This document shows, piece after piece, positions 9,535 through 36,925 of a DNA stretch of 64,000 nt (positions are counted from its first letter, which is position 1; each line of letters begins with the position of its first letter). Position numbers and translations under genes: made by a program. The notes beneath the pieces are model-generated. The model was not told where the DNA came from, did not search any database, and worked only from the letters and a program-made list of their open reading frames with translations. This stretch comes from Flavobacteriales bacterium (lineage in GTDB: Bacteria > Bacteroidota > Bacteroidia > Flavobacteriales_D > Sanyastnellaceae): assembly GCA_029238785.1 (NCBI GenBank), contig JAQWFN010000028.1:1-64000 (forward strand). Direction: 5' to 3'.

Positions 9535-10194
9535 TTAACGCTTCAAAGCTTCCTTTATTGCTTCAAGTTGTGACTCAGGGAGGTAGTTATTCGGGGTGAT
9601 GGAAGGAAAGCCAAATTTCAGGAGTTCTTTTTGAGTGCTTTCACCCATGGCCATGATGGCGCTTCCTGGTTTTGGTTTTTGCTTCGCGAAGAAAGATTGA
9701 ACATTGCTCGGACTAGTGAAGAAGTAGAGGTCGGACTCGGGAATGAAGAAATTACTTTTAAGCTTGGTTTCATAGCTAAAGCGCACCTCGGCTTGATGGC
9801 CAAGAACTTTTGGAATGCGCTGCAGGCTGTTTTTGGAGCAGGGGAAGAGCACCTTTTCATGGCCCAAAACGTTTTTAAACGCTTCAGCCACTTCGGCCAC
9901 TTCTCCTTCGCCAACGAAATCGGCATGTACTTCTTCGGGTTTGGCGCGGAGTGTTCCTTCACCCAGAAAAGCCAACTTGAAGCCTTTAAAAGAACAATGC
10001 TCATCATACACACGCACTGCTTTTGGAGAGGTGAAAAACAACCAAGAAAATTCAGTGTTGTTGGGACAAGTGAAAGGGAGCGCTTCGAATTCAATCAAGC
10101 TTTCAGCATGCACTTTGAGGTCCATTTCACGAAGGCCGATGGAGACAGGGTGGTCCAAATCCAGCTTTGAACTATAAAAAACTAGGGCTTTCAC
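9535..10194 (-). CDS. hemD: Uroporphyrinogen-III synthase
   Basis: 219 residues, GTG start at 10194 overlapping the hemC stop (GTGA). It closes hydroxymethylbilane into uroporphyrinogen III with inversion of ring D. The family is poorly conserved. The pattern WLFFTSPKAVRVY (first lobe), KVLFPCSKNS and DLYFFTSPSNVQSFF (second lobe) matches the two-lobed HemD fold, and the length is slightly below the usual ~240. The operon position directly after hemC makes the call strong. One copy of the CTTCGCGAAG word lies inside it at 9682-9691. Confidence 0.92.
   Translation of the reverse strand: MKALVFYSSKLDLDHPVSIGLREMDLKVHAESLIEFEALPFTCPNNTEFSWLFFTSPKAVRVYDEHCSFKGFKLAFLGEGTLRAKPEEVHADFVGEGEVAEVAEAFKNVLGHEKVLFPCSKNSLQRIPKVLGHQAEVRFSYETKLKSNFFIPESDLYFFTSPSNVQSFFAKQKPKPGSAIMAMGESTQKELLKFGFPSITPNNYLPESQLEAIKEALKR
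9677..9691 (-). repeat. Copy 1 of CTTCGCGAAGCAAAA word
   Basis: Exact 15-bp copy on the minus strand within hemD, where it is read in the sense direction as Phe-Ala-Lys-Gln-Lys. See the finding on this iterated palindrome. Confidence 0.9.
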
Positions 10195-11072
10195 TTGACC
10201 ACATCTTTCAAGCCCAGATGAATGAGCTTTTCGGTGCTTTCAGAGAAGTATTGTGCAAACCAGGCTTGTCCATCAATCATGCTGAAGAGGTTCAACTCAT
10301 GTTGTTCATTTTTCTCGTTCCATTCGCAAAAGGCTCCAAAGGGAACCTGACAACCGCCGTTAATTCCGCGCAAGATTTCACGCTCAACACGAATGTTCTG
10401 AGCGGTATGTTCGTGGTGCAATACCTTAGTTACAGCTTCATTGTCTTCTCCTGCTCGCATTTGAATGGCCAAGGCCCCTTGAGCTGGCGCACTCACAAAA
10501 TCACGTGGATCGAGATCAAACAGCTCCAAATCGCTCACGTCGAGGTTCAAACGATCGAGTCCGGCACGAGCGAGTAAAATGGCGTCGTACTGTCCTTCAC
10601 GCAACTTGTTAATTCTGGTGGGCACATTTCCCCTCAGCATGTTAATGGTGGTTTTAGGCAAAGCGGCCTTGATTTGCTCACTTCGGCGGGCAGAAGAGGT
10701 ACCAACAAGGGCGTCTTCGTGCAGTCCCCACTTCCCTTCCAAGTTGAATTTTGACTTGCGAATCAGTAAAACGTCATTGGGCGCAGCGCGTTCTCCTACA
10801 GCAACAATTTCTAAACCCTCAGGCATGGTGGTTTCAAGGTCTTTATGGGAATGAACGGCAATGTCGATGCTTTTGTCGAGCAAAGCAGCTTCAATTTCCT
10901 TGGTGAAAAATCCTTTGCCCTCCATTTTGTCGAAAGACAAGTGCTGGATTTGATCGCCTTGGGTTTTGATGATCTTGATTTCGGTTTCAATGCCCGCTGC
11001 TTTGAGTCGGTCTTGAACATGATGCGCTTGCCATAAAGCCAAGTCGCTGCCTCTGGTGCCAATGGTGTACAA
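10191..11072 (-). CDS. hemC: Porphobilinogen deaminase (hydroxymethylbilane synthase)
   Basis: 293 residues. Polymerises four porphobilinogen units into hydroxymethylbilane. The N-terminal IGTRGSDLALWQAHHV is the family signature, with LEGKWGLHEDALVGTSSARR and RLREGQ-type substrate-binding arginines in the middle. Cys241 in GGCQVPFG carries the dipyrromethane cofactor. The start is TTG at 11072, since no ATG precedes the conserved N-terminus. It starts 7 bp after the hemA stop and overlaps hemD. Confidence 0.97.
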   Translation of the reverse strand: MYTIGTRGSDLALWQAHHVQDRLKAAGIETEIKIIKTQGDQIQHLSFDKMEGKGFFTKEIEAALLDKSIDIAVHSHKDLETTMPEGLEIVAVGERAAPNDVLLIRKSKFNLEGKWGLHEDALVGTSSARRSEQIKAALPKTTINMLRGNVPTRINKLREGQYDAILLARAGLDRLNLDVSDLELFDLDPRDFVSAPAQGALAIQMRAGEDNEAVTKVLHHEHTAQNIRVEREILRGINGGCQVPFGAFCEWNEKNEQHELNLFSMIDGQAWFAQYFSESTEKLIHLGLKDVVK

Positions 11073-11079
11073 GGGGGAG

Positions 11080-12306
11080 CTAGTTTTTGGTGACGTTTTC
11101 CAAGATGACCGCTCTGGCCATTTTCATTGGAAGACTGATGTATTTTTTCTCCATATAAAGAAGAATCTTTTCGAGCACTTCTTTGGAGTTGGAATCGAGG
11201 TTTTCGAGGTCTTTCGCAAACACTTCGCCGATGGCGGTAGAACGAATGTCTTTAATGGTTTGCGGAATTTCACGCATGGCAATTTCCAAACGGCGCTGCT
11301 GAATTTCTTGGTTCACTTGGTGAAGGCCGTCTTGGATGATTTCCAAACAGGCTTCGAGTTCCTGGCCTCGTTGTGCGATGTTCACGTCTGCTTGGGCTTT
11401 CAATTCTTGCATCCCAATGAATTTCGAACCCAGCGTGTCAATCAAACTCTGGTCGGTATCTGCAGGCAAAGCGATGTCGGTCAACAATTCAAAATGAGCA
11501 GCAGCCAATTGTTCAAAAAGCGCGGGTTCAATCAAAGGTGCTTCAGAACCGGTACAAGTGAAAATGGCACTGAAGCGCTGTTTTCCATTGCGGAGGTCTT
11601 CAAGTGATATCGCCTGCCAGCCTGTTCTTCCAGAGCAGAGTTCTTGGGCTTTGCTGAGGGTTCTGTTGGCAATCACCACGTTTTTGTATCCGCCTTTATA
11701 AAGAAAACGAGCCAAATTACCGATGGTTTGACCGGCACCAATCAAAAGCACGGCCCGATCTTGAGGAACACTGCGCTGCTTGAATTCTTGCCATGCCAAG
11801 GAAACAACGGAAACGGGTTTGGTGGAGATTTTGGTCTCGGTGAACACGCGTTTTGCGGTTTCGATGACTTTTTTCGACAAAATCTTAAGGAAGTCGCCAC
11901 TGTTTCCAAAAGCCAGCGCTTCGTCAAAAGCTTTTCTTACTTGGGTAATGATCTCACGCTCACCAAGTACCATGGACTCCAGAGAGGAGGCCACTTTAAT
12001 CAAGTGCAATACGGCTTCTTCGCCTTGGTAATGTTCGAGTTGATCTTGGAGTTGATTGGTTTCCTCTTGGTCGAGCCCAAAAAAGGAAAGCAAAGCAGCG
12101 CGCTGACCTTGGCAGAAGTAAGCCGGCGCATGAACGATGAATTCCACGCGGTTGCACGTGCTTACATAGGCAATCTCGTGCAAGTTCAATGCAGATTTGA
12201 TTTTGCCGAGAACCGATTCCTTCCGAGTTTCTTCTAAATGAAGTTTACCAACAAGCTCAAGTGGCGTGTTGCGGTGGGTGATGGCGATGACTTGTAATTG
12301 CTCCAA
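11080..12306 (-). CDS. hemA: Glutamyl-tRNA reductase
   Basis: 408 residues. Reduces Glu-tRNA to glutamate-1-semialdehyde, the first step of the C5 route to heme; the next enzyme, HemL, is encoded at 31171. ITHRNTPLEL and VSTCNRVEFIV (catalytic Cys51) are diagnostic, followed by a Rossmann NADPH domain (AVLLIGAGQTIGNLARFL) and a helical dimerisation tail. The start is TTG at 12306: upstream in frame there is only a stop within five codons, and the N-terminus aligns with the family from this point. First gene of hemA-hemC-hemD. Confidence 0.97.
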   Translation of the reverse strand: MEQLQVIAITHRNTPLELVGKLHLEETRKESVLGKIKSALNLHEIAYVSTCNRVEFIVHAPAYFCQGQRAALLSFFGLDQEETNQLQDQLEHYQGEEAVLHLIKVASSLESMVLGEREIITQVRKAFDEALAFGNSGDFLKILSKKVIETAKRVFTETKISTKPVSVVSLAWQEFKQRSVPQDRAVLLIGAGQTIGNLARFLYKGGYKNVVIANRTLSKAQELCSGRTGWQAISLEDLRNGKQRFSAIFTCTGSEAPLIEPALFEQLAAAHFELLTDIALPADTDQSLIDTLGSKFIGMQELKAQADVNIAQRGQELEACLEIIQDGLHQVNQEIQQRRLEIAMREIPQTIKDIRSTAIGEVFAKDLENLDSNSKEVLEKILLYMEKKYISLPMKMARAVILENVTKN

Positions 12307-12447
12307 GGTGAAATTCGTTTACATTACAAAGTACGTAAGAGAAGCTTTTTTGTTTGTCATGCATTTGTCAGAAGGGCTTATTTAGAATTGTTTTATGATA
12401 GTTGGTCGGGCTTTGGGGGTGGCTTTGAGGGAAGAGTTGGTGTAGGG

Positions 12448-12548
12448 CTGCGCCTGTTTATGGTCGCTGCGCGCCTGTTTATGGTCGCTTCGCTTCGGTT
12501 TATGGTCGCTTTGCTTCTGTTTAGGGCGCTTTGCTTCTGTTTAGTTTG
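12448..12548. repeat. Five-unit degenerate ~20-bp tandem repeat
   Basis: Units start at 12448, 12467, 12488, 12509 and 12529, of 19, 21, 21, 20 and 20 bp. The first three end in GTTTATGGTCG; the last two share CTTTGCTTCTGTTTAG. Divergence rises from left to right, so it is an old array rather than a fresh expansion. Confidence 0.85.
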
Positions 12549-12690
12549 CTGGCGCGCGGGTTTTCTTGGGAGTTGCTTCAACACTTGATGCCAAATGTTA
12601 AAACACAAGCCCCATGTTAAGCACATTTAAATAAATGCTACCTTTTTAAAGACCTAACAGCCATTAATTTCGCTTTCTTTCTTTTAACAT

Positions 12691-12732
12691 CCGCTCAGTG
12701 GGCCACTTCGGCTCCGCTCAGTGGGCCACTTC
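12691..12732. repeat. 19-bp direct repeat, period 23
   Basis: CCGCTCAGTGGGCCACTTC occurs at 12691-12709 and again, identically, at 12714-12732. It lies in the same non-coding spacer as the tandem array. No function is evident. Confidence 0.9.
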
Positions 12733-12772
12733 TGGTCCCTTTAGCTTTCAGTAATTAATTTTTTCCAAGTTC

Positions 12773-12810
12773 AAAAAAAACGCCCAATCAAATCAATGAA
12801 TGGGCGTTTT
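12773..12810 (-). terminator. Intrinsic terminator of nrdA
   Basis: On the minus strand a stem AAAACGCCCA / TGGGCGTTTT with an 18-nt spacer that can itself pair partly (ATTCATTGA/TTTGAT) is followed by a T run of eight. It lies 18 bp after the nrdA stop. Confidence 0.88.
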
Positions 12811-12828
12811 GAGTGAGGTATAATCGGC

Positions 12829-15195
12829 TTATCCGCTGCACATTTCGCAGTCTGGGCCATTTTCGATAGAGCAAGCAGCAATGGCGTTTTGCTCGTCAAT
12901 TTGTGCTTGCGACATCGCTGTTGGTTCTTCTTTGTACTTCTTCTCAACGGTGAACTTGATGGCATCGGTAGCCGCTTTGGTTCTGAGGTAGTACATTCCT
13001 GTTTTTAATCCTTTTTTCCATCCGTAGAAGTGCATAGAGGTGAGCTTACCGAAGTTGGCGTTCTCCATGAAGATGTTCAAAGACTGTGATTGGCAAATGA
13101 ATGCCCCGCGGTCTGCAGACATGTCGAGAATGGCTTTCTGAGAAATTTCCCATGCTGTTCTGTACAAGACTTTCAAGTTGTCTGGAATCTCCTTGATGTT
13201 TTGAACAGATCCGTTCGCAGCAATCAATTTGTTCTTCATGTTCTCATCCCAAAGACCAAGCTTGGTCAAATCGCGAAGCAAGTGCTTGTTTACAATGATG
13301 AACTCACCAGAAAGTACTCTACGGGTGTAGATGTTCGAAGTGTAAGGTTCGAAGCACTCGTTGTTTCCAAGGATTTGAGCTGTAGAAGCCGTTGGCATTG
13401 GCGCCATCAACAAAGAGTTTCTCAAGCCGTGCTCTTTGATTTCTTCTTTCAAGACGTCCCATTCCCAACGCTTCGATGGAGTTACTCCCCACATGTCGAA
13501 CTGCAATTTTCCTTCAGATGCAGGCGATCCTTTGAAGGTATCGTAAGCACCTTCTGCTTTGGCCAAATCTTTCGACGCTGTAGCCGCTGCGTAGTAGATG
13601 GTTTCGAAAATGTCTTTGTTCAAAGCACGTGCTTCTTCCGAGTCAAATGGATGACGCAAAAGGATGAAGGCATCAGCCAATCCTTGCACACCAATTCCGA
13701 TTGGACGGTGACGCATGTTGGAGTTTCTCGCTTCGATGATAGGGTAGTAGTTCTCATCAATGATGCGGTTCAAGTTTTTGGTGACTTGATAAGTCACATC
13801 GAACAAACGTTGGTGGTCGAAACTACCGTCTTTCACAAACTTAGGAAGCGCAATGGAAGCGAGGTTACATACAGCCACTTCATCTGGAGCAGTGTACTCG
13901 ATAATCTCTGTACAAAGGTTCGAAGAACGGATGGTACCCAAGTTTTGTTGGTTGGATTTACCGTTAGCCGCATCCTTGTACAACATGTAAGGCGTACCTG
14001 TTTCAATTTGCGATTCGATGATTTTGAACCACAACTCTTGTGCTTTGATGGTTTGTCTTCCTTTTCCTTCTTTCTCGTACTTCAAGTAAAGTGCCTCGAA
14101 TTCTTCGTTGTGCGTATCGGTCAAACCAGGACACTCGTTAGGGCACATCAAGGTCCACTCACCATCTTGTTCCACACGCTTCATGAAGAGGTCTGGAATC
14201 CAAAGTGCGTAGAACAAATCGCGTGCACGTTGCTCTTCTTTACCGTGGTTTTTCTTCAAATCGAGGAAGTCGAAGATATCGGCATGCCAAGGTTCAACAT
14301 AAATCGCAAAAGAACCTTTACGCTTACCACCACCTTGATCAACGTAGCGCGCAGTATCGTTAAACACCTTCAACATCGGAACGATTCCGTTCGACGTACC
14401 GTTGGTTCCTTTAATGTAAGAACCTTTAGCGCGGATATCGTGAATGGCCAAACCAATTCCACCGGCATTCTGTGAAATTTTCGCGGTTTGCTTCAATGTA
14501 TCATAAATCCCACCGATGCTGTCTTCCTTCATGGTAAGGAGGAAACAAGAAGACATCTGCGGTTTCGGAGTACCTGAGTTAAAAAGGGTAGGAGTTGCGT
14601 GGGTGAACCAACCTTCGCTCATCAAGTTATAGGTGGCTACTGCAGATTCAAGATCGGTTTTGTGAATCCCTACAGAAACACGCATCAACATGTGTTGTGG
14701 ACGTTCTGCAACAACACCGTTGGTTTTAAGGAGGTATGATCTTTCCAGTGTTTTGAACCCGAAGTAGTCGTAGTTAAAATCACGGTCGTAAATGATGTTT
14801 GAATCAAGGAAATCGGCATTTTCCTGGATAATTTCATGAACATCATCAGCGATAAGAGAAGCTCTGTCGCCATTCTTAGGGTCTACATATTCGTAGAGCT
14901 CTTTCATGGTTTCAGAGAAGGACTTTTTCGTTCCCTTGTGCAAGTTAGACACGGCAATTCTCGAAGCGAGCAAAGCGTAATCTGGGTGAGTTACTGCATT
15001 TGTTGCAGCTACTTCCGCAGCGAGGTTGTCGAGTTGTGAAGTGGTTACTCCATCAAACACCCCTTCAATCACCTTCATGGCGATTTTTAGTGGATCTACA
15101 CTGGCGTGCAAACCGTAGCAAAGTTTTTTAATACGAGCTGTGATTTTGTCGAATTTCACAAGCTCCTTTCTGCCGTCTCTTTTAATTACATACAT
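12829..15195 (-). CDS. nrdA: Ribonucleotide reductase class Ia, large (alpha) subunit
   Basis: 788 residues. Reduces ribonucleoside diphosphates to deoxyribonucleotides together with NrdB. An N-terminal ATP-cone ([22 protein letters not shown], about residues 1-90) gives dATP/ATP control. The ten-stranded barrel follows with the conserved stretches [47 protein letters not shown]. The C-terminal tail carries redox cysteines in PDCEMCSG. Unusually for this phylum, the start at 15195 is preceded by a perfect Shine-Dalgarno AAGGAGG with a 7-nt spacer. It is downstream of nrdB with a 150-bp spacer containing two hairpins. Confidence 0.97.
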
Positions 15196-15202
15196 ATTAA
15201 GT

Positions 15203-15209
15203 CCTCCTT
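15203..15209 (-). promoter_or_regulatory. Perfect Shine-Dalgarno (AAGGAGG) of nrdA
   Basis: On the minus strand AAGGAGG precedes the nrdA ATG with 7 nt between. It is the only such match I found ahead of a start in the window; most other starts have A-rich leaders or none. Confidence 0.85.
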
Positions 15210-15248
15210 AAATTATATAGTTGTTTCGAAATAAAGGTTCAATTTATT

Positions 15249-15285
15249 AGGGGGATAAATCCCCTTTCTCATGCTTTTCAGCATG
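15249..15285 (-). promoter_or_regulatory. Tandem hairpins in the nrdB-nrdA spacer
   Basis: Two short inverted repeats lie back to back: CATGCT/AGCATG (15270-15285, 4-nt loop) and GGGGA/TCCCC (within 15249-15265, 4-nt loop). Neither is followed by a T run on the minus strand, so they look more like processing or stability elements between nrdB and nrdA than a terminator. Confidence 0.5.
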
Positions 15286-15345
15286 CAGTAGTTGGTAGTA
15301 GTAAAACTGCTTTTGGTTAATTAAGTCAGTGCGCTTAAAAGTGGT

Positions 15346-16389
15346 TTAGAAGTCTTCGTCCACTGAAAAACTTCTGTTATCATTTCCACCCATCACACCT
15401 GCTTTTTGGTATTCTGCTACTCGCTTCTCGAAGAAATTGGTTTTTCCTTGAAGTGAGATCATGTCCATAAAGTCAAACGGATTGCTTGCATTATAAACTT
15501 TATCGTTTCCGAGTTCAACCAGAAGGCGGTCTGCAACAAATTCGATGTATTGGGACATCAAATCGGCGTTCATTCCGATCAATTTCACTGGAAGTGAATC
15601 GGTCACAAATTCTTTTTCGATCGCCACTGCATCAACAATGATTTTCTCTACAGTTGATTTTGGCAATTTGTTCACCAAGTGCTTCGTGTAAAGCAAGCAA
15701 GCAAAATCGCAGTGCAGGCCTTCATCGCGAGAGATCAACTCATTCGAGAAGCTCAAGCCGGGCATCAAGCCTCTTTTCTTCAGCCAGAAAATAGAACAGA
15801 ACGAACCAGAGAAGAAAATACCTTCCACTGCGGCAAAGGCAACCAAACGCTCAGCATAAGAACCATTGTCGATCCAGTTGAGTGCCCAATCTGCTTTTTT
15901 CTTCACACAGTCCATGGTATCAATCGCATTGAACAGGCGGTCTTTTTCAGCAGAATCCTTGATGTAAGAATCAATCAACAAAGAGTAGGTCTCTGAGTGG
16001 ATGTTCTCCATCATGATTTGGAAGCCGTAGAAAAACTTTGCTTCAGTGTATTGAACCTCAGCCAAAAAGTTCTCCGCCAAATTTTCGTTCACAATACCGT
16101 CACTTGCTGCGAAAAAAGCCAAAACGTGTTTAATGAAATAACGCTCATCATCATTCAACTTGGTGTTCCAATCCACGAGGTCGGGATCCAAATCAATTTC
16201 CTCAGCGGTCCAAAAACTAGCCTCAGACTTTTTATAAAACGCCCAAATGTCATCATGCTGTATTGGGAAAAGCACAAAGCGTCCAGGGTTATCATCTAGA
16301 ATGGGTTCAGCTACCTGTGTGTTTTCAGGTAAAACTTGGTCGATGGTGACTTGCTGGTCTTTTTTTTCGTTCTGAGTTACGTTATCCAT
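15346..16389 (-). CDS. nrdB: Ribonucleotide reductase class Ia, small (beta) subunit
   Basis: 347 residues. Houses the di-iron-oxo/tyrosyl radical cofactor used by NrdA. Helical ferritin-like fold with ligand motifs [23 protein letters not shown] and [16 protein letters not shown]; an acidic C-terminal tail ending SVDEDF binds the alpha subunit. The first ~35 residues are a polar Gln/Glu-rich extension. The order is nrdB then nrdA, the reverse of enterobacteria. No clear promoter or NrdR box was found upstream by eye. Confidence 0.97.
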
Positions 16390-16873
16390 TTTTCAATGTG
16401 GCTTTTCCAATTGCTTGGGGTTCAATAAACTAATTTTTGGGTAAGACCGAAGTCTCGAGTAGTCAACCGGAAGCTGTGAAAAACGATTTCCGTGATGAAT
16501 ATTGACACAACAAAAATTGTCATTTTATGGTCAGTTGTCAATCCAAAACAATTCACATTTGGACGGAGTTTTGAACAACGGTCGTTGATGTTTTTCTGTG
16601 TCCCAACAACCACGCGGATTAGGCTCGTTTTCACATCGTTAATAGCTTGTTTATTTTAATTTTGGACTTGTTTTTTTGGCATAATTTTATTTAAAAGGCA
16701 AAGCGCTCGAGAAGCGGCAGACTGCTTGTCATACAAGACCTTCAAGATGTGCCACCTTGTCATAAAAAACAGGCATGGCATCATTTTCGTCAAAGGAAAT
16801 CGCTCCCACTCCAATGGGCTTTGTATTTTTGTAGCGCCTAAAGAGGAAAACATTTGGGCAAACACTTTTTATT
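16390..16873. other. Divergent intergenic region nrdB / secA
   Basis: 484 bp. The small ORFs here have no recognisable product. It should contain the nrdB promoter (not recognised) and the secA promoter: TATTTTTG at 16824-16831 fits a -7 box, with no good -33 TTG at the usual distance, giving a ~40-nt leader. An imperfect inverted repeat (ATTGACACAAC ... GTTGTCAAT, 16501-16542) may be an operator. Confidence 0.5.
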
Positions 16874-20209: not shown

Positions 20210-20224
20210 GCCCTTCTAGAAAAT

Positions 20225-21115
20225 CTAAAACAAAGCGCCTTGACTCGAAATGAGTTGGGGCGTTTTCATTTTAATGCCGAGTCGTTTTTCAAGTTGCGCA
20301 TTGAAATAAATGCACGATTCTGGCGTGGTGATGGAGTCGGGTTGATGCATGAGCAAGTGCAGCGACTTCAAACCACCGGCGTTCCATTTTTCGATGCGAT
20401 CTACCCAATCATCGAAGCGTTTAAAATCGCTTGGATCTTGATTGTAGCCGCCAAAGCGAAGCACCAAAAAGGGAGCGGTAAGCGCCATGTGCACCGCGTC
20501 TCGTCGGCCCGCCGTATCTGAAATCACAGCGCCAATGCCTTCGCGAAGCAAAAACTCCCAGATGTACTTGTGCTCTTCAATGAACCAATCGGGATGCCTG
20601 AATTCAACAGCAATGCGGATGTCTTTGGGCAATGAGGCCAAGTATTCCATCAAACGATCAGCGTATTTCGGCGTGTAGTTTGGAGGAAGCTGAATAAAAG
20701 CCGGTCCGAGCTTATCGCCAAAAGCACTAATCGCTGTCAAGAATTCATCAGTGAGTCCTTCCGAATTCGTGAACCTTCGGTAATGTGTAATGAGTTGCGG
20801 CCATTTGGGACAAAACTCGAAGCCTTTTGGAGCCAGGTCAGCCCATTTCTCAATCGTACTCGCGGGATGAATTCGGTAGTGTGTGGCGTTCAATTCAATG
20901 CAGCCAAATTGCCGACAATAGGCCTCGCCGAAGTCTTTAACGGGCGTTTTGGGCGGATAAATTTTGCCTTTCCAAGCCTTAATTCCCCACATGGTTCCAC
21001 CTGAAAAGGCTTGCAGCGTATTTTTTTGTGTCTGAAGGAATTTTTGGGTGATGGGGTGATCTTCAGGCAAATCGAAGTTGATATGGTCTATTTGTTCAAG
21101 TTTCCCGAATTTCAT
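20225..21115 (-). CDS. DUF72 family protein (TIM-barrel)
   Basis: 296 residues. N-terminal GTMWGIKAWKGKIYPP and the FGCIELNATHYRIHPASTIEKWA motif, followed by AFIQLPPNYTPKY, RIAVEFRHPDWF and VLRFGGYN, match DUF72 (YecE-like), a TIM barrel of unknown activity with conserved acidic and aromatic residues. The family is typically cytoplasmic and single-domain, as here. It converges on secA with 15 bp between stops and is divergent from the membrane protein at 21150. Confidence 0.9.
   Translation of the reverse strand: MKFGKLEQIDHINFDLPEDHPITQKFLQTQKNTLQAFSGGTMWGIKAWKGKIYPPKTPVKDFGEAYCRQFGCIELNATHYRIHPASTIEKWADLAPKGFEFCPKWPQLITHYRRFTNSEGLTDEFLTAISAFGDKLGPAFIQLPPNYTPKYADRLMEYLASLPKDIRIAVEFRHPDWFIEEHKYIWEFLLREGIGAVISDTAGRRDAVHMALTAPFLVLRFGGYNQDPSDFKRFDDWVDRIEKWNAGGLKSLHLLMHQPDSITTPESCIYFNAQLEKRLGIKMKTPQLISSQGALF
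20539..20553 (+). repeat. Copy 2 of CTTCGCGAAGCAAAA word
   Basis: Exact 15-bp copy on the plus strand, antisense to the DUF72 gene; on the coding strand it is read through Phe-Leu-Leu-Arg-Glu-Gly. Confidence 0.9.
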
Positions 21116-21149
21116 GAATGAAGTGCTTATTTTGTGTCCAATTTAAAAC

Positions 21150-21554: not shown

Positions 21555-21627
21555 ACAAGTACAAAAGATAGTAGTGCGGCCACAAAGTTCTTCTGCGCGC
21601 TATTGTTTTCTGTTTTTTATTTGTCCC

Positions 21628-22311
21628 ATGAATCTGTTGCAAGAAACATGGAATGTCTTGTACCCCTTGCGTTGCAAGTCGTGTCAATCGCCACTCATTC
21701 ACGCAGAGCGTGTTTTGTGCTTGCGTTGCCGCGCCGGTTTGGACCTGGTCTTTGGTGGCCGTGGTTTTCAGACGATAGAGCAGCGGTTTTGGGGCAGGGT
21801 TCGGGTTGACGAAGCGTACAGTTTGCTGAGGTTCTCGAATAAATCCATGACGCAGCGTTTGATTCACTTGCTGAAGTATGATGGGGACGCGGACGTTGGT
21901 TTGCTTTTGGGAGAAATGTTGGGCCGCCGTCTGCTCTCCGTTATACCACAAGGACACTGGGTACTTGTTCCAGTACCGATTCACCCCAAAAAGAAGCGGG
22001 TGCGCGGTTATAACCAAAGCGAAGTTTTGGCTCGGGGCATGGTAAAGCACTTGGATGCGCACATCGATGAAAAGGCTTTGATTCGAAAAGAAAAAGGGAA
22101 GTCTTTAACAACGATGAACCGGATAGAACGCGCGGTGTATACCGATCAGCTCTTCGATCTTCATCCCGAGTGCAATCTCAAAGGACAGTCGGTGATCTTA
22201 ATCGACGATGTGCTCACCACGGGTGCAACATTGTGTTCTTGTGCCCGTTTACTTCGCGAAGCAAAAGTAGATGAACTCATCATAGCAACAGCTGCTTTTA
22301 CTGATGATTGA
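21628..22311 (+). CDS. comF: ComF-family phosphoribosyltransferase
   Basis: 227 residues from the ATG at 21628; the longer reading adds an unrelated stretch. Two CxxC pairs at the N-terminus (CKSC, CLRC) form the ComF zinc finger, and the C-terminal PRTase domain contains VILIDDVLTTGATL, the PRPP loop. The block VLVPVPIHPKKKRVRGYNQSE is diagnostic. ComF homologues (GntX in E. coli) are needed for natural DNA uptake in several bacteria. Contains copy 3 of the iterated word at 22252. Confidence 0.93.
   Translation: MNLLQETWNVLYPLRCKSCQSPLIHAERVLCLRCRAGLDLVFGGRGFQTIEQRFWGRVRVDEAYSLLRFSNKSMTQRLIHLLKYDGDADVGLLLGEMLGRRLLSVIPQGHWVLVPVPIHPKKKRVRGYNQSEVLARGMVKHLDAHIDEKALIRKEKGKSLTTMNRIERAVYTDQLFDLHPECNLKGQSVILIDDVLTTGATLCSCARLLREAKVDELIIATAAFTDD
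22252..22266 (+). repeat. Copy 3 of CTTCGCGAAGCAAAA word
   Basis: Exact 15-bp copy in the sense direction near the 3' end of comF, read as Leu-Arg-Glu-Ala-Lys. Confidence 0.9.
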
Positions 22312-24424: not shown

Positions 24425-24443
24425 AGCAACTTTTTAGTGTTCT

Positions 24444-29096: not shown

Positions 29097-29099
29097 GTA

Positions 29100-29798
29100 C
29101 TACTGGTTAATTTCTAGGAAGCGCTTGACGTTATTCAGCGTGCCGAAAACAACAAGGGTGTCTGTATCATAAATCACCGTTTCTTCCTTCAATACACCCA
29201 AGATGTGCTCTTTGAATTCCACTTCACCATCATTGGTCTCTTCTTCGAACTGACGCTTTAGTGTGATGAGTGTGAGGTTATATTTTTCGAGGAGTTTGAT
29301 GTCTTCCAAGGTTCTGTTTAGAATCTTCTTCGGCGCTTTGATCTCTGCAATTTCGTAATCATCAGGAAGTTGCAGAAAGGCGGTAATGCTTGGGTTGATG
29401 AGCCTTTCAGCTACAATGCTTGCAATCTCTCCCTCAGGCTCTAATATCTCGGTAACACCTAAGTTTTTTAGAATTCGAATTTGATTGTCACCACTTGCTC
29501 TAACAATAACACGAGGAATTTTTAAGTCGATCATGTTCAAGGCGGTGAGCACCGTCGCCTCGAAGTTTTCTCCAATAGCAACAATGGCCGCATCCATTTC
29601 TTGAATCCGTTGCGACATCAAGGCTTTTTTGTCTGTAGTATCTAACGCTACAGCAAGCGCAACATCGTCTTTGATGTTCTCAATACGCTCTTCACTCACA
29701 TCAAAAGCATAGACTTCAGCGCCTTTGCTCGACAATTTCTGAGCAATTTCGCTTCCGTATTTACCCACCCCAATCACAACGACTTTCTTATGATTCAT
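29100..29798 (-). CDS. TrkA/KtrA-type RCK potassium-channel regulator
   Basis: 232 residues. N-terminal Rossmann RCK_N domain with VVVIGVGKYGSEIAQKL and the acidic end of beta-2 (YAFD) for NAD(H) or nucleotide binding, then an RCK_C domain (about 140-220). Gates potassium uptake from the cytoplasmic face; the membrane partner KtrB/TrkH is not in the window. Follows kynU by 30 bp on the same strand. Its stop faces the giant surface gene with 3 bp between. Confidence 0.93.
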   Translation of the reverse strand: MNHKKVVVIGVGKYGSEIAQKLSSKGAEVYAFDVSEERIENIKDDVALAVALDTTDKKALMSQRIQEMDAAIVAIGENFEATVLTALNMIDLKIPRVIVRASGDNQIRILKNLGVTEILEPEGEIASIVAERLINPSITAFLQLPDDYEIAEIKAPKKILNRTLEDIKLLEKYNLTLITLKRQFEEETNDGEVEFKEHILGVLKEETVIYDTDTLVVFGTLNNVKRFLEINQ

Positions 29799-29828
29799 GA
29801 TCTAAAATTTTAAACGAAGATAAGACCT

Positions 29829-31109
29829 TTATGCCTCACAAGCTGCTTCAAGGATTTCAGCAAATCGGTAAATGTCTTCAAAAGAATTATAAAAAGGAAC
29901 GGGCGCCATGCGGATCACATTGGGCTCCCGCCAATCGGCAATTACACCTTCTTTGGTCAATTGGTCGAAAAGGGCCTTTCCAAAGCCATGTGCCACCACA
30001 GAAACTTGCGAACCTCTCGCGTCGTGCTCTCTTGGAGTGATGATTTCTAATCTACCTTTTCTCAACTTGGCGCTAATGCGATCGATCTCAAACATGAGGT
30101 AATCTGATAATTTGAGCGACTTTTCCCTCAATGCGCTCATGCCCACTTCATCAAAGAGGTCTAAGGCCACCTTGTGCGCTGTCATGGCCAGCACTGGGGC
30201 GTTGCTCAACTGCCAGCCTTCCGCTCCTGGTATAGGTCTAAAACCCGGCTCCATTAAAAAACGTTCGTCTTTATCATGACCCCACCAGCCGGCCATGCGC
30301 GGTAGGTTCTTATCCACGCCATTGCGCTCATGAACAAAGGCTCCAGAAATACTTCCTGGTCCGGAATTCAAATACTTGTAAGTACACCAGCAGGCAAAAT
30401 CCACATTCCAATCATGCAATTGCATTGGGATGTTCCCTGCAGCATGTGCCAAATCAAAACCGCAGTAGGCATCAACTTTGTGTGCAGCAGCAGTAATGGT
30501 TTTCATATCGAAAACTTGTCCGCTATAATAATTCACACCACCAATCATCACGCAGGCCAATTCATCCCCGTGCGCTTCAATGGCGGCAAGAATGTCTTCT
30601 GTAGCAATGATGTCGCTTCCTTCTCTCGGACCAACTTCAATCAAAGCATCTTCAAGACTTAAACCGTGCAGCTTGATTTGAGATTCGAGGGCATATTGGT
30701 CTGAAGGAAAGGCTTTTTTCTCGCAGAGAATTTTGAAACGCGCTTTTGTTGGGCGATAAAAACTCGTCAAAAGCAAGTGAAGATTTACCGTTAATCCGTT
30801 CATCAATACCACTTCATTTTCCTTCGCTCCAACCAAACGCGCGGCTCCTGCAGTGAACAATTCGTGGTAACTAAACCAGGGGTTTTTGGCGTGAAAATGA
30901 CCTTCAACGCCCCATTTTGCCCAATCGTCCAGCTCCTGATTTATCGCCTCCCGCACTCCTTTCGGTTGAAGTCCGAGCGAATTTCCAGTAAAATAGATCA
31001 CTTCCTTACCGTCAATTATGGGAATATGGAAGCTCTTTCTGTACTTAGAAAGGGCGTCTGCGCCATCAAATGCGCTTACCTGAGATAAATCATGTTGGAA
31101 TTGGTTCAT
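29829..31109 (-). CDS. kynU: Kynureninase
   Basis: 426 residues, a fold-type I PLP enzyme that cleaves kynurenine or 3-hydroxykynurenine to (3-hydroxy)anthranilate and alanine. The motif CTYKYLNSGPGSISGAFVHE carries the PLP lysine (about residue 243); GLDLAHAAGN-like CGFDLAHAAGNIP holds the PLP-contacting Asp and His, and YFTGNSLGLQP is the typical N-terminal block. With the 3-hydroxyanthranilate dioxygenase at 50317 it supports a kynurenine to quinolinate route. Divergent from hemL across a 61-bp spacer. Confidence 0.95.
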   Translation of the reverse strand: MNQFQHDLSQVSAFDGADALSKYRKSFHIPIIDGKEVIYFTGNSLGLQPKGVREAINQELDDWAKWGVEGHFHAKNPWFSYHELFTAGAARLVGAKENEVVLMNGLTVNLHLLLTSFYRPTKARFKILCEKKAFPSDQYALESQIKLHGLSLEDALIEVGPREGSDIIATEDILAAIEAHGDELACVMIGGVNYYSGQVFDMKTITAAAHKVDAYCGFDLAHAAGNIPMQLHDWNVDFACWCTYKYLNSGPGSISGAFVHERNGVDKNLPRMAGWWGHDKDERFLMEPGFRPIPGAEGWQLSNAPVLAMTAHKVALDLFDEVGMSALREKSLKLSDYLMFEIDRISAKLRKGRLEIITPREHDARGSQVSVVAHGFGKALFDQLTKEGVIADWREPNVIRMAPVPFYNSFEDIYRFAEILEAACEA

Positions 31110-31124
31110 GTAGCCTTACTTTTG
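31095..31124 (+). promoter_or_regulatory. -33/-7 promoter of hemL
   Basis: TTG (31095-31097), a 19-nt spacer and TACTTTTG (31117-31124). The -33 box lies within the kynU coding start. The predicted leader is about 40 nt. Confidence 0.78.
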
Positions 31125-31170
31125 TGGCTCAAAGAAGGCCGAAATTTCTTAAAATTCAAAACCCAATTAC

Positions 31171-32469
31171 ATGATCAATCGCACAAAGTCAAAAGCCCTG
31201 TTTGAAACAGCTCAAAAACTTTTCCCCGGAGGAGTGAATTCTCCAGTACGCGCATTTAAATCTGTTGGAGGAACACCACTGTTTATTGCAAAGGGAGATG
31301 GGTGTAGAATTTGGGATGAAGACGGTAATGAGTTTATCGACTTCTGCAATTCGTGGGGACCACTAATTTTAGGACACAATCACCCAAAGATTCGCGAAGC
31401 AGTTATTGAGGCGGTGTGCAATGGAACTTCCTTTGGTGCACCTACAAAATTGGAGAATGAGTTGGCGAGTTTGATTTTAGAAAACCACAGCTACATCGAA
31501 AAAATCCGTTTTGTAAGTTCCGGGACCGAAGCCGCAATGTCGGCCATTCGCTTGGCGCGTGGAGTTACAGGAAGAGACAAGATCATCAAGTTTGAAGGAT
31601 GTTATCACGGTCACGTAGATGCTTTGCTTGTTCAGGCAGGCTCTGGTTTGGCTACGTATGGTACTTCTTCATCAGCAGGAGTTCCTGAGGCTTATGTGAA
31701 AGAAACCGTGGTGCTTCCGCTCAACGACCGTGAAGCAGTGGAGAAGGCCATCGCATTGCATAAAGACAACATTGCCTGCATCGCCATTGAGCCTATTCCA
31801 GCGAATAACGGTTTGCTTATACAAGACATCGACTTCTTGCGTTTCCTTCGCGAAATATGCACAAGAGAGGGCATTATTTTGCTTTTTGATGAGGTGATTT
31901 CAGGCTTCAGAGTTGGTTTCGAAGGAGCTGCAGGTTACTACGGAATTCAACCAGATGTTATGGCCTTTGGAAAGATCATCGGTGGAGGTTTGCCGGTAGG
32001 TGCTTATGGTTCATCCAAAGAAGTGATGTCCCATGTTTCACCAGAGGGTCCGGTTTACCAAGCTGGAACCTTAAGCGGAAACCCAGTAGCCATGGCAGCC
32101 GGAAAAGCGCAATTAAGCGAGTGCCTTACGCCTGGATTCTATGAAGCCCTCCTAGAAAAAACGGAATACTTCAAAAACGCCATTCTTGATCACGCAAAAG
32201 CGAAGGGCTATACCTTTAATATGTTTAACCGTGGATCGATATTCTGGTTGGCATTTTCAGACAAAGTGGCCATTCGAAAGTCGTCTGAAATCGATGCAGA
32301 CAGCATGAAGTACTTCACTAAGTTGCACGCGGCCCTCTTGGAAAGAGGCGTTTATCTTGGACCGAGTGGCTACGAAGTAGGTTTTATTTCAGCAGCGCAC
32401 AGCATGGCTGATTTGGACATCGCCGTTCAAGCCTTTAAAGAAGCATTAGATATAGCTTTCGCAGATTAA
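31171..32469 (+). CDS. hemL: Glutamate-1-semialdehyde 2,1-aminomutase
   Basis: 432 residues. Second step of the C5 heme pathway: glutamate-1-semialdehyde to 5-aminolevulinate, using PLP/PMP. FPGGVNSPVRAFKSVGGTP is the family N-terminus, KFEGCYHGHVDALLVQAGSG the substrate loop, LLFDEVISGFR the PLP-ring Asp, and Lys268 in MAFGKIIGGGLPVGA the Schiff-base lysine. Lies apart from hemA-hemC-hemD. Its 3' end overlaps the convergent UbiA-like gene by 24 bp. Confidence 0.98.
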   Translation: MINRTKSKALFETAQKLFPGGVNSPVRAFKSVGGTPLFIAKGDGCRIWDEDGNEFIDFCNSWGPLILGHNHPKIREAVIEAVCNGTSFGAPTKLENELASLILENHSYIEKIRFVSSGTEAAMSAIRLARGVTGRDKIIKFEGCYHGHVDALLVQAGSGLATYGTSSSAGVPEAYVKETVVLPLNDREAVEKAIALHKDNIACIAIEPIPANNGLLIQDIDFLRFLREICTREGIILLFDEVISGFRVGFEGAAGYYGIQPDVMAFGKIIGGGLPVGAYGSSKEVMSHVSPEGPVYQAGTLSGNPVAMAAGKAQLSECLTPGFYEALLEKTEYFKNAILDHAKAKGYTFNMFNRGSIFWLAFSDKVAIRKSSEIDADSMKYFTKLHAALLERGVYLGPSGYEVGFISAAHSMADLDIAVQAFKEALDIAFAD

Positions 32470-33327
32470 AATGGCGAGGGCCTTTATAATGATGCTGCCA
32501 TCGAGGTAGGCAGAATAGAACAACTCTTTGCGCTCTGAATTGGTGCTCACAACGAGCGCAAGTGCATAGCTGTTGCCTCCAAGAAATGCCAGGAGCACAG
32601 GGAATTCTATTGTTTCGTTCGACCAAAGGATGAAGGTGCAAAAACTCGACATCAGCAAGAATAAAGCGGCCAAATAGAGCGCCCCTCTTCGCCCAAAAAG
32701 TTGAGGGATGGTTTTTTGCGAATGCGAATCGTATTTCAAATCGCGGATATCGAAAGGAATGGTAATGGCCAGAATAAAAAGAAAGCCTTCGCCCATCAGC
32801 CACCAAAATGCGCCATAATTAAAGATGTCCCAAGCGTGTTCGTGCACCAGCGGCAAGGCAACGCAGCTCATCATCCAAGTGAAGGCGATGAGGTAGATCT
32901 TGAGGTAGGGCAGCTGGCGAAAGGCCTTCGATTTTTTCTTACTCCATCCGAGAGGAAGCGCGTAAAAAATGGAAAAAACGGCAGGAATCGCCAAAAGTAT
33001 CCAATCCTGAATAGGCAGAAAAAGGGCCATAACAAAGCTAGCTGCAGCACCAATAATGCCCAATTTTTTTATTGTTTTTGCTTCGCGAAGCAGCCAATTA
33101 TTTCTCCCCGCTGCTCTATAGTGCCCTTCTTGTTCCAGCTTAACACTTCGTTGAAAATTGTAGATGAAAAAGGTGGCTACTCCAACAAAGGCGGCAATGA
33201 ACACATCGCCCTCACCCATGATTCTGGCAGATTGATAGGCAAACAAGGCTGCCGCAAGGGCAATCCAGACATTACTGTAAACCGCATTTCTGAGGTGTTT
33301 TTGAAAAAAGAAACGGGCCGCTCTCAC
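32446..33327 (-). CDS. UbiA-superfamily membrane protein with a degenerate first motif
   Basis: 293 residues, about eight membrane helices. GTG start at 33327, sharing one base with the stop of the upstream gene (TAGTG). The second Asp-rich motif is intact (FDIRDLKYDSHSQKTIP, about residues 195-211), as in UbiA prenyltransferases. The first motif, normally NDxxDxxxD, reads YNFQRSVK here (about residue 57) and lacks both aspartates that hold Mg-diphosphate. It may use another substrate or be inactive as a prenyltransferase. Function open. Confidence 0.8.
   Translation of the reverse strand: MRAARFFFQKHLRNAVYSNVWIALAAALFAYQSARIMGEGDVFIAAFVGVATFFIYNFQRSVKLEQEGHYRAAGRNNWLLREAKTIKKLGIIGAAASFVMALFLPIQDWILLAIPAVFSIFYALPLGWSKKKSKAFRQLPYLKIYLIAFTWMMSCVALPLVHEHAWDIFNYGAFWWLMGEGFLFILAITIPFDIRDLKYDSHSQKTIPQLFGRRGALYLAALFLLMSSFCTFILWSNETIEFPVLLAFLGGNSYALALVVSTNSERKELFYSAYLDGSIIIKALAILICESYI
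33076..33090 (-). repeat. Copy 4 of CTTCGCGAAGCAAAA word
   Basis: Exact 15-bp copy on the minus strand in the sense direction of the UbiA-like gene, read as Leu-Arg-Glu-Ala-Lys. One extra flanking pair makes the palindrome 12 bp (GCTTCGCGAAGC). Confidence 0.9.
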
Positions 33328-33941
33328 TAGTTCTGAACAATGAAGTAGACCGCAACGCCCAACACCGCACCGATGCTACTACCTTTTAATCCGCCAAGTA
33401 CTTTTCTAGATCGGGCAACGCTTTCATAACCCATGGCATAGATTTCATCGTATCGGTGGTTGGGATTGGTGATGGTTTTTTCTCGGATTTTTACTTTAGG
33501 GACAAGCTGCAAAAGGGTGTAAGAAACAGGAATTAGGAGCGGTGTAATGAGTCCGCCCTCAGCCAAGTATCCACTAGCCGCGCCTAAACCAAGGCCTACA
33601 TAAGTTGTTGGACGAGGGTCGTAACCCGCCATAGCATCTTGTTCTCCAGCAATATAAATGCGCATTTCTTGAACCGTAAAATCGTCGCCGATGAAGGTGT
33701 CTTGGCTATAAAAAATGTTTTCGGTGCTGTCTTTTTGGGTGATGGAGAAGATGTCAGACCTTGGGCTAGCAATCGAGCGCAATTTTCCGCGCTTATTCTT
33801 CACCTCATAACGCACCTCAAAATCATTAACTTCCGTAATTTTGCATTCGATTTCGTGTCCTGACATTTTTAGGATCAGATCTTGAGCTGAACTACTTAAA
33901 GAAAGAAGGACAAAAATCGCGAGGGATAAACTGGTTTTCAT
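33327..33941 (-). CDS. Secreted or envelope protein, function unknown
   Basis: 204 residues. Signal peptide MKTSLSLAIFVLLSLSSSAQ, then a beta-rich stretch (LILKMSGHEIECKITEVNDFEVRYEVKNK) typical of Bacteroidota proteins of unknown function, and two weakly hydrophobic Gly/Ala-rich segments (about 115-145 and 180-202) that may insert in a membrane. Probably co-transcribed with the UbiA-like gene. A -7 box TACCTTTG (33963-33956) lies 14 nt before the ATG without a clear -33 box. Confidence 0.75.
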   Translation of the reverse strand: MKTSLSLAIFVLLSLSSSAQDLILKMSGHEIECKITEVNDFEVRYEVKNKRGKLRSIASPRSDIFSITQKDSTENIFYSQDTFIGDDFTVQEMRIYIAGEQDAMAGYDPRPTTYVGLGLGAASGYLAEGGLITPLLIPVSYTLLQLVPKVKIREKTITNPNHRYDEIYAMGYESVARSRKVLGGLKGSSIGAVLGVAVYFIVQN

Positions 33942-34084
33942 GAGGTGAATTTTGTCAAAGGTAAAAACCCTGAAACAACTGCTTCATGCACTTTGAATTG
34001 TTTGTTAATAACTCAGCGTGAACAAGCGGTCTTATCAAATGTATATTTGCCATCGGAAACTTTCCGATTAATCCGATTTTGGAG

Positions 34085-36925
34085 ATGAAAAATGGAACTT
34101 TTGCCTCACGGCACATCGGCCCAAGAGCCGCTCAGGAACAAGAGATGCTAGCAGTATCTGGAGTGTCCACAATGGAAGAATTGGTTGCGAAAACCATTCC
34201 CGCCAACATTCGTCGGAAAGCCCTCGACATTAAGGAGGCAATGACCGAGCAAGAATACCTGGAGCACATTCAAGGTTTAGGAGAACAGAATCAAGTGTTT
34301 ACCAATTATATCGGAATGGGTTACTACCCAAGCGTTACGCCTTCGGTAATTATGCGTAATGTATTGGAGAATCCGGGTTGGTACACGGCCTACACACCTT
34401 ACCAAGCAGAAATTGCGCAGGGTAGATTGGAAGCGCTTTTGAATTTCCAGACGGTGGTTTCAGACCTTACGGGAATGGAAATCGCCAATGCGTCTTTGCT
34501 TGATGAAGGCACGGCTGCAGCGGAGGCAATGATCATGTTCTTCAACAACAGAAGCAGAACTGCAGTTAAGGCGGGAGCCACCAAGTGCTTTATTGATGAA
34601 GACATGTATCCACAAACCAAAGAAGTACTTGCTACAAGAGCAAAATACATCGATGTAGAATTGGTGGAGGGTGATTTCAGAACAGCACAGCTCGATGAAA
34701 GCTTCTTCTGTGCGATGGTTCAATATCCATCTGCAAAAGGTGAAGTTCGCGATTACGCCACCTTCGCGAAGCAAATAAAAGAACACGAAATTAAACTGGG
34801 TGTTGCCACAGATTTGATGGCGCTCACGCATTTGCAAGAACCAGGAGCATGGGGAGCTGATGCGGTTTACGGAAACAGCCAACGCTTCGGTGTGCCGATG
34901 GGCTATGGTGGTCCGCACGCGGCTTTCTTCGCAACGCACGACAGTTATAAAAGACACATCCCGGGAAGAATCATTGGTGTGAGCCAAGATCGCCTTGGGA
35001 AATCAGGATACAGAATGGCGCTCCAAACAAGAGAGCAGCACATTCGTAGAGACAAAGCAACATCAAACATCTGCACAGCCCAAGCGCTTTTGGCAGTTAT
35101 GGCTTCGATGTATGCGGTGTATCATGGAAAAGAAGGTTTGTTGCGCATTGCCTCAAACATCCATCAAAAAGCCGATGCCATTGCGGATGCTGTGAAAGCT
35201 GCAGGACTCACCTTAAAGTACGAGCATTTTTATGATACCGTTTGCATTTCAGGAGCAGACCAAGAAAGCATCAGAACGAGGGCGCTTGCTAAACGCATTA
35301 ACCTGGCTTATCACCAAGATGGCGACATCAGTATTTCCACTTTTGAGGGGATGAATGATGCTCAACTTGAAGAGTTACTTGAGGTTTTAGGACTGAAATC
35401 AGCTCCAGCAGCGAAGGCAGACCGTTTGCATTCCTTGAAGCGAAGCAGCGATTTCTTGCAGCATCCAGTGTTCAATACCTACCGTTCTGAAACCGAGATG
35501 ATGCGCTACATGAAGCGTTTGGAAAACAAAGACCTTTCTTTGGTTCATTCCATGATTCCGCTGGGGAGCTGCACCATGAAGTTGAATGCAGCAACAGAGC
35601 TGATGCCCATCACCTGGCCAAAATGGGCTGGATTGCATCCTTTTGTTCCTGTGAATCAAGCGCAGGGTTACCAAAAGATGTTGGAGATTTTGGCTGAAGA
35701 TTTAGCTGAAGTAACAGGTTTCGCTGGTGTTTCCTTACAACCAAACTCAGGTGCTCAAGGAGAGTATGCTGGTTTGATGGTGATCCGCGCATACCACGAT
35801 GCAAGAGGAGATCATCATAGAAATATTTGCCTTATCCCGTCTTCTGCTCACGGAACAAACCCAGCTTCTGCAGTAATGGCAGGAATGAAGGTGGTAGTGG
35901 TGGCTTGCGATGATGAAGGGAATGTTGATTTAGCTGACCTTAAAGCGAAGGCCGATTTGCATAAAGACAATCTTGGTGCACTCATGGTTACTTACCCTTC
36001 AACACATGGAGTATTCGAGGAAGCCATTGTTGAGATGAATGATTATATTCATGCTTGTGGCGGACAAGTTTACATGGACGGAGCAAACATGAATGCTCAA
36101 GTGGGCTTAACAAGTCCCGGACACATTGGTGCAGACGTATGTCACCTCAACCTCCATAAAACCTTTGCCATTCCTCACGGTGGTGGTGGCCCTGGAATGG
36201 GTCCGATTGGTGTTGCAGCACACCTCGTACCTTTCTTGCCGGGCAATCCGGTGATTACTACAGGTGGTGATCAAGCAGTGACGGGAATCAGTGCAGCTCC
36301 ATTTGGTTCAGCTTTGATTTTGTTGATCAGCTATGCTTATAATAAAATGCTGGGAGCTAAAGGCTTGCAGTCGAGCACCGAGTGGGCCATTTTGAATGCA
36401 AATTACATCCGGGCTCGACTAGAAGGACATTATCCAATTCTTTATAAAGGTAAAAACGGTACTGTTGCGCATGAGATGATCATTGATTGCCGCGCCTTTA
36501 AAAACAGTGTTGGAGTTGAGGTGGCCGATATTGCTAAGCGATTGATGGATTATGGTTTCCATGCTCCAACGGTGTCATTCCCTGTTGCAGGAACTTTGAT
36601 GATTGAGCCAACAGAAAGCGAATCAAAAGAAGAGTTGGATCGTTTTTGCGATGCGATGATTCAGATTCGTGAAGAGATTCGTGAAGTAGAACAAGGAATC
36701 TATGGCTTAGAAGATAATGTATTGAAAATGGCTCCTCACACAGCTGAAGAAGTTTGTGCTACGGAATGGAAGCATTCATATTCTCGTGAGAAAGCCGCTT
36801 TCCCAATGTCGTACGTGAGAATGAATAAATTCTGGGTAGCTGTTTCAAGAATCGATAACGCTTATGGCGATCGAAATTTAATTTGTACTTGTCCGCCGAT
36901 GGAGCAATACGAAGAAATGGCTTAA
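34085..36925 (+). CDS. gcvP: Glycine dehydrogenase (decarboxylating), P-protein
   Basis: 946 residues, a single chain with both halves fused. Decarboxylates glycine in the glycine cleavage system. The N-terminal FASRHIGPR is diagnostic; the catalytic PLP Lys692 is in HLNLHKTFAIPHGGGGPG. PSTHGVFEE and GANMNAQVGL contact the cofactor. An in-frame TTG at 34079 was rejected in favour of the ATG at 34085. A -7 box TATATTTG (34042-34049) lies 35 nt upstream; its -33 partner is poor. No glycine riboswitch is seen in the 143-bp spacer. The T-, H- and L-protein genes are elsewhere. Confidence 0.98.
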   Translation: MKNGTFASRHIGPRAAQEQEMLAVSGVSTMEELVAKTIPANIRRKALDIKEAMTEQEYLEHIQGLGEQNQVFTNYIGMGYYPSVTPSVIMRNVLENPGWYTAYTPYQAEIAQGRLEALLNFQTVVSDLTGMEIANASLLDEGTAAAEAMIMFFNNRSRTAVKAGATKCFIDEDMYPQTKEVLATRAKYIDVELVEGDFRTAQLDESFFCAMVQYPSAKGEVRDYATFAKQIKEHEIKLGVATDLMALTHLQEPGAWGADAVYGNSQRFGVPMGYGGPHAAFFATHDSYKRHIPGRIIGVSQDRLGKSGYRMALQTREQHIRRDKATSNICTAQALLAVMASMYAVYHGKEGLLRIASNIHQKADAIADAVKAAGLTLKYEHFYDTVCISGADQESIRTRALAKRINLAYHQDGDISISTFEGMNDAQLEELLEVLGLKSAPAAKADRLHSLKRSSDFLQHPVFNTYRSETEMMRYMKRLENKDLSLVHSMIPLGSCTMKLNAATELMPITWPKWAGLHPFVPVNQAQGYQKMLEILAEDLAEVTGFAGVSLQPNSGAQGEYAGLMVIRAYHDARGDHHRNICLIPSSAHGTNPASAVMAGMKVVVVACDDEGNVDLADLKAKADLHKDNLGALMVTYPSTHGVFEEAIVEMNDYIHACGGQVYMDGANMNAQVGLTSPGHIGADVCHLNLHKTFAIPHGGGGPGMGPIGVAAHLVPFLPGNPVITTGGDQAVTGISAAPFGSALILLISYAYNKMLGAKGLQSSTEWAILNANYIRARLEGHYPILYKGKNGTVAHEMIIDCRAFKNSVGVEVADIAKRLMDYGFHAPTVSFPVAGTLMIEPTESESKEELDRFCDAMIQIREEIREVEQGIYGLEDNVLKMAPHTAEEVCATEWKHSYSREKAAFPMSYVRMNKFWVAVSRIDNAYGDRNLICTCPPMEQYEEMA
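34762..34776 (+). repeat. Copy 5 of the CTTCGCGAAG word (14 of 15 match)
   Basis: CTTCGCGAAGCAAAT in the sense direction of gcvP, read as Phe-Ala-Lys-Gln, a different frame from copies 3 and 4. Confidence 0.88.

Follow-up and report, generated by a model that had tools for sequence, protein, structure and literature searches.

An 18-bp DNA dyad iterated over the chromosome of a member of the Bacteroidota and confined to few related genera

The chromosome of the bacterium studied here carries a palindromic word in about 140 copies. It is close to certain that this word is real, that it belongs to the DNA and not to the encoded proteins, that it occurs genome-wide, that it is a dyad and that it is restricted to one lineage. 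Our preferred reading, which we hold tentatively, is that it constitutes a double-stranded-DNA site of a putative homodimeric, sequence-specific protein acting chromosome-wide.

Results

Abundance of the word in the genome

The host genome (G000) belongs to the Bacteroidota, comprises 3.11 Mb in 132 contigs and is 99.6% complete; the nearest relative of its GcvP protein stems from a metagenome-assembled member of the Flavobacteriales (66%). The core word CTTCGCGAAG was found 140 times in the whole genome (45 per Mb), while the reversed letters, which also form a palindrome, occurred 18 times. Extrapolation from 3.67 copies expected in 1.24 Mb gave a Markov-4 expectation of about 9 for the whole genome, i.e., an approximately 15-fold excess, and extrapolated codon shuffling gave about 12. 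The 12-mer CTTCGCGAAGCA was present in 133 copies and backwards in three. In the first 697 kb examined, no word of 9 to 12 letters was more strongly over-represented than CTTCGCGAAG.

Detailed tests were carried out, beside the whole-genome word counts, on a sample of 1.24 Mb composed of stretches of G000. About 40 of these stretches had been picked for holding sites, so the enrichment within them (68 exact cores versus 3.7 expected by Markov-4) is biased upward and the whole-genome count of 140 is the unbiased figure. In the stretches selected irrespective of sites (430 kb), 17 copies were counted, a density in keeping with the 140 copies of the complete 3.11 Mb. Other 10-bp palindromes were not raised in the sample (1088 seen, 1232 expected). 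The excess that a preceding sequence-only reading had noticed in a single stretch, and had proposed to count against Markov and codon-shuffled nulls, thus extends over the genome, where the copies are randomly scattered across contigs with no clustering confined to that stretch.

Copies within the window

In the window, i.e., the whole analysed stretch of 64,000 nucleotides, the exact 10-mer occurs five times versus 0.13 expected by a second-order Markov model. The earlier chance figure of 0.06, calculated with uniform bases, was slightly low, while the conclusion of an excess holds. Allowing for one mismatch at most, 12 matches were obtained compared to a mean of 1.7 in dinucleotide shuffles. 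The copies and related sites are:

9678..9695, dyad copy 1 (16 of 18 letters), core CTTCGCGAAG at 9682-9691, in the hemD gene (9535-10194, minus strand), frame FAK
20535..20552, dyad copy 2 (15 of 18), core at 20539-20548, in the DUF72 gene (20225-21115, minus strand), frame LRE
22248..22265, dyad copy 3 (17 of 18), core at 22252-22261, in the comF-type gene (21574-22311, plus strand), frame LRE
33077..33094, dyad copy 4 (16 of 18), core at 33081-33090, in the UbiA-like gene (32446-33327, minus strand), frame LRE
34758..34775, dyad copy 5 (14 of 18), core at 34762-34771, in gcvP (34079-36925, plus strand), frame FAK
31390..31399, plus strand, one-mismatch core ATTCGCGAAG, a variant class mildly enriched genome-wide
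31846..31855, plus strand, one-mismatch core CTTCGCGAAA, a variant class near background genome-wide
47357..47366, plus strand, one-mismatch core CTTCGCGATG (= CATCGCGAAG on the other strand), the sole strongly enriched single variant
13271..13281, plus strand, half-site TCGCGAAGCAA from the sequence-only reading, not a full core

The 15-mer CTTCGCGAAGCAAAA, in which form the word had originally been reported, was confirmed at 9677-9691 (minus), 20539-20553 (plus), 22252-22266 (plus) and 33076-33090 (minus), and so was a fifth copy at 34762-34776 (plus) with a single change, the last A to T. The partial words at 13271-13281, 31391-31401 and 31846-31854 are also present. By Pfam, the copy-bearing genes encode HemD, a DUF72 protein, a ComF-type phosphoribosyltransferase (DZR_2 + Pribosyltran), a UbiA-like protein (below the Pfam cut-off) and GcvP, which agrees with the original assignment of all five copies to hemD, DUF72, comF, ubiA-like and gcvP genes. 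The reported use of different frames (LRE at 20539, 22252 and 33081; FAK at 9682 and 34762) was reproduced, and the one antisense copy is that at 20539 in its asymmetric orientation.

Structure of the word

Position weights calculated with both arms pooled revealed that the full signal is the perfect 18-bp dyad TTTGCTTCGCGAAGCAAA, in which C-A-A-A is preferred on both sides outside the core. The extension to 18 bp held in three genomes analysed separately, namely G000, G001 (the only congener compared) and G002 (another genus of the same family). In many copies, one arm matches well and the other less well, and for this reason the word had appeared as an asymmetric 15-mer. Its supposedly one-sided CAAAA tail is in fact one arm of the symmetric dyad. 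Beyond approximately 18-20 bp, the copies share no sequence.

Of the single-change variants in the 1.24-Mb sample, only CATCGCGAAG (18 versus 3.1 sites) and, to a lesser degree, ATTCGCGAAG were clearly raised; variants with two mismatches were at background (672 versus 679). Single deviations were most frequent near the core ends.

The word is a property of the DNA

The fetched stretches contained 63 genic and five intergenic sites, which at a coding fraction of 0.905 means that spacers are occupied at the base rate. Copies were found in all three frames, with and against the direction of the gene. The LRE frame was the commonest and comprised 45 of the 63 genic copies, as might be expected if CTT CGC GAA GCA AAA were a favoured spelling of the common helix peptide LREAK. 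Several data speak against such a codon or peptide bias. Synonymous codon shuffling that kept the proteins intact yielded a mean of 2.3 copies (largest number 10 in 100 shuffles), whereas 48 were observed. The exact word was used for 34 out of 53 LRE[VADEG] peptides compared to 1.8 expected, and the full word also occurs in the other two frames and in the opposite orientation. Even the peptide itself is inflated, since LREA was encountered 37 times and the reverse AERL 13 times, indicating that peptide use is shifted by the word. Finally, amino-acid identity at the site codons did not exceed the value for the flanks (0.73 versus 0.79). A codon or peptide bias is therefore very improbable, and the shuffling null and the peptide counts led us to rule it out. 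Thus, the selected or driven object is the DNA; the corresponding claim of the sequence-only reading is strongly supported.

A role as promoter, operator or terminator was ruled out, as 5 of 68 sites lying in spacers corresponds to the base rate and the genes beside the intergenic copies have no common function. An RNA element was ruled out too; no Rfam families were found in the window and both orientations occur. Because the copies sit at the base rate in functionally unrelated genes, the copy within comF, previously taken as a hint of DNA uptake, is meaningless.

Distribution over the chromosome

Copy numbers on the 47 contigs with known counts fitted a Poisson distribution (chi-square 36 versus a simulated mean of 46). 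This per-contig dispersion gave no sign of large site-free regions, the power of the test being 0.87 for a half-empty genome and only 0.22 for a genome that is 20% site-free. With GC skew as a proxy for the leading strand, the asymmetric flank was located 30 times on the G-rich and 37 times on the C-rich strand. Hence, the strand bias relative to ori/ter that had been suggested for checking was not seen by this proxy.

Turnover and occurrence in relatives

Orthologous stretches of G001 are about 75% identical to those of G000 and mostly of the same length, the word being absent from them through substitutions. The G001 orthologue of dyad copy 2 (DUF72 gene), for instance, shows other letters at the word with unchanged length, and that of dyad copy 3 (comF-type gene) retains nine of the ten core letters. 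Copies arise and decay by substitution, not by insertion. A short palindrome found at many places could also stem from the insertion into genes of a scattered repeat, mobile or palindromic, of the REP, RPE or MITE kind. We regard this as highly improbable, as no empty sites were encountered at the mostly equally long G001 positions and nothing beyond approximately 18-20 bp is common to the copies; the same-length orthologues rule out insertion of such a repeat. A phage origin or multi-copy use by phages was also discarded: among the listed IMG/VR matches to the 14-mer GCTTCGCGAAGCAA, there were single copies only, which look like chance.

Six out of seven aligned G001 sites were exact in G000, whereas the background rate for ordinary windows of 10 bases was 13.5% (binomial p = 4e-5); in the reverse direction, six out of 18 aligned G000 sites were exact in G001 (p = 0.026). 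Therefore, the common ancestor of G000 and G001 had some of these sites. The majority of G000 sites have no exact counterpart in G001, so individual positions are dispensable. One-mismatch forms per exact copy were relatively more abundant in G001 and G002 than in G000, a pattern compatible with decay or with less strict maintenance.

The 12-mer CTTCGCGAAGCA was counted 133 times in G000, 38 times in G002, 19 times in G001, ten times in G060 (genus g20) and 0-5 times in others. CTTCGCGAAGCAA, counted across 399 genomes belonging to the order, gave a similar ranking (G000 104, G002 23, G001 11, G060 5, rest 0-3). In a draw of 396 genomes of the phylum, one without G001 and G002, the 14-mer reached 71 copies in G000 and at most one in each of the 395 others. 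The word is consequently elevated only in the host genus, in one sister genus and weakly in a third.

The two members of the host genus differ approximately fivefold to sevenfold in abundance (12-mer 133 versus 19); almost every aligned copy of G001 also exists in G000. No description of the word was found in the literature searched; judging by titles and abstracts, the 15 papers in which it appears deal with different subjects, and primers or cloning sequence are its probable source there.

Candidate readers

One PF02195 match each was obtained in G000, G001 and G002, and no Noc-like ParB paralogue was found in them. In the same three genomes, no PF00437 match (type IV pilus/secretion ATPase) was above the cut-off, while ComEC was present; it is near-universal in the family and also occurs in relatives without the word. 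The methyltransferase search comprised the families PF00145 and PF01555. PF00145 (m5C) was absent from G000 and G001, and PF01555 gave no match above the cut-off in these two genomes.

Other repeated sequences

A second iterated word, the asymmetric cATCACCCAGAAAA, is located in the window at 9959-9970 (plus) and 63272-63283 (minus) and also at L340:8282, L101:1549, L084:1784 and other places. It is followed by an A-rich tail, and 15 of 41 listed copies were called intergenic (one or more at contig ends). Counted as TCACCCAGAAAA, it occurs 69 times in G000, 17 times in G001 and 0-6 times in 38 other relatives; the reversed word is missing in G000. Unlike the palindrome, the second word is not raised in G002. 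Both words were within 300 bp of each other four times compared to 1.5 expected, which is not significant.

A unit of approximately 21 bp with GCGACCCTAAACCGGAGC forms a tandem array at L106:17550-17705 and recurs at L104:11012 and 11828-11860, L087:3655 and 5308-5396, and L096:10229. AGTTACATGCTG repeats at spacings of 81, 108 and 189 bases at L095:331-1276 and L105:9816-10275, resembling a repeat protein gene across two contigs.

Discussion

The symmetry of the word suggests how it may be read. We infer a dimeric protein, each monomer of which would recognise CGAAGCAAA, with the inner CTTCGCGAAG being nearly obligatory and TTTGCTTCGCGAAGCAAA as consensus. Symmetric weights over 18 bp in three genomes, the sharp 10-bp core and the normal frequency of other 10-bp palindromes are in favor of such a protein site. 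The occurrence in both orientations, three frames and, at base rate, in spacers, the loss of copies upon codon shuffling (2.3 versus 48) and the retention of G001 sites in G000 (6/7 versus 13.5%; reverse 6/18) point in the same direction. The putative protein would act chromosome-wide if the approximately 140 scattered copies are kept for it, possibly by loading on the nucleoid, by organising it or by marking self DNA, and a homodimer system of this kind would tolerate the turnover of single positions. Weighing against the protein site is that no candidate reader emerged when a Noc-like ParB, a pilus ATPase and two methyltransferase families were sought, that most G000 sites are inexact in G001, and that mutation or repair bias can yield a palindrome without any reader. 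Moreover, a macrodomain is either spared or marked by the known organising sites of Noc, SlmA and MatP, but the sites here are Poisson-like in a test whose power is 22% for a 20% gap.

Noc sites of Bacillus and SlmA sites of E. coli, which serve nucleoid occlusion, are likewise scattered dyads, numbering from some tens to approximately a hundred round the chromosome; their readers are dimeric, as is the putative one here. The word differs from them in sequence, and it occurs in genomes with one ParB-type protein each, a second protein of this family being absent from G000, G001 and G002. In G000, the dispersion over contigs gives no sign of large site-free regions, although its power is low for a gap of 20%. 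Chi and KOPS are over-represented chromosomal words as well and are read by a DNA-processing machine. They are short, asymmetric and strand-biased, while the word presented here has a palindromic core, forms a perfect dyad over its full length and shows no link of orientation to skew (30 versus 37). A Chi- or KOPS-type signal is for these reasons unlikely, and the Chi-like function formerly considered fits badly.

Two further explanations have to be weighed against the protein site. Donor DNA bearing the word might be preferentially taken up and recombined, so that copies spread by molecular drive as in the uptake words of Neisseria (DUS) and Pasteurellaceae (USS). Similar to the DUS and to the USS of Haemophilus, the word is short, DNA-level, lineage-specific, located in unrelated genes and spread by substitution and recombination. 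Its random scatter, its gain and loss by substitution, its lineage-limited abundance and its A-rich flanks are what drive would give, and the ComEC protein of all three genomes is compatible with this explanation. However, ComEC is equally present in word-free relatives, and machinery of the type IV pilus type was not detected above the PF00437 cut-off in G000, G001 and G002. In addition, classic uptake words reach hundreds per Mb, so that 45 per Mb is far lower (tenfold or more sparser), and no uptake word is known to be a dyad. Altogether, an uptake or transfer word is unlikely.

We judge as rather improbable that the word is a HIP-type palindrome, which would originate without any reader from methylation-dependent mismatch repair or another biased mutational process in the surroundings of a sequence, for example TCGCGA, that a methyltransferase targets. 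As a description, the term highly iterated palindrome is suitable: HIP1 and alternative HIPs of cyanobacteria (GCGATCGC and others) are also over-represented and mostly genic palindromes that are symmetrically extended in some genomes, vary between lineages and have no assigned function (PMC4390886). The strong over-representation against a composition model (140 copies versus 18 reversed and about 9 by Markov-4) and single deviations that are commonest toward the core ends, as for HIP1 (PMC4390886), agree with it, and TTCGCGAA outside the full core was raised about twofold (52 versus 24). In contrast, TCGCGA apart from the word was near expectation (273 versus 256, second-order model). HIPs measure 5-8 bp and amount to roughly 500-2500 per Mb (PMC4390886), whereas the word has a core of 10 bp, a dyad of 18 bp and about 45 copies per Mb, not hundreds to thousands, in a host belonging to the Bacteroidota. 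The case for a HIP-like methylation origin is weakened by the length and density of the word and by the methyltransferase families missing from G000 and G001 (PF00145 absent, PF01555 with no confident match).

More specifically, and with greater reserve than for the protein site as such, we propose a lineage-specific chromosome address of Bacteroidota, previously undescribed: an 18-bp dyad of about 140 copies, by which a putative dimeric protein might organise, segregate or mark the nucleoid, or guide DNA exchange, and which expanded in one lineage and is sparser and maybe decaying in the sister.

It is rare that a genome maintains a word as DNA in genes that are otherwise unrelated. In every well-studied case (Chi, KOPS, DUS/USS, Noc and SlmA sites), the word pointed the way to a machine working on the whole chromosome; for HIP1, the nearest analogue, a function is to our knowledge still not agreed. 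The palindrome of G000 is unusually sharp and long, and its range comprises no more than two or three genera within a single family. As two methyltransferase families able to explain a HIP are missing, it would separate the methylation model from others. Given the approximately fivefold to sevenfold difference between congeners, one could follow directly how such a word is born or decays, and its reader along with it.
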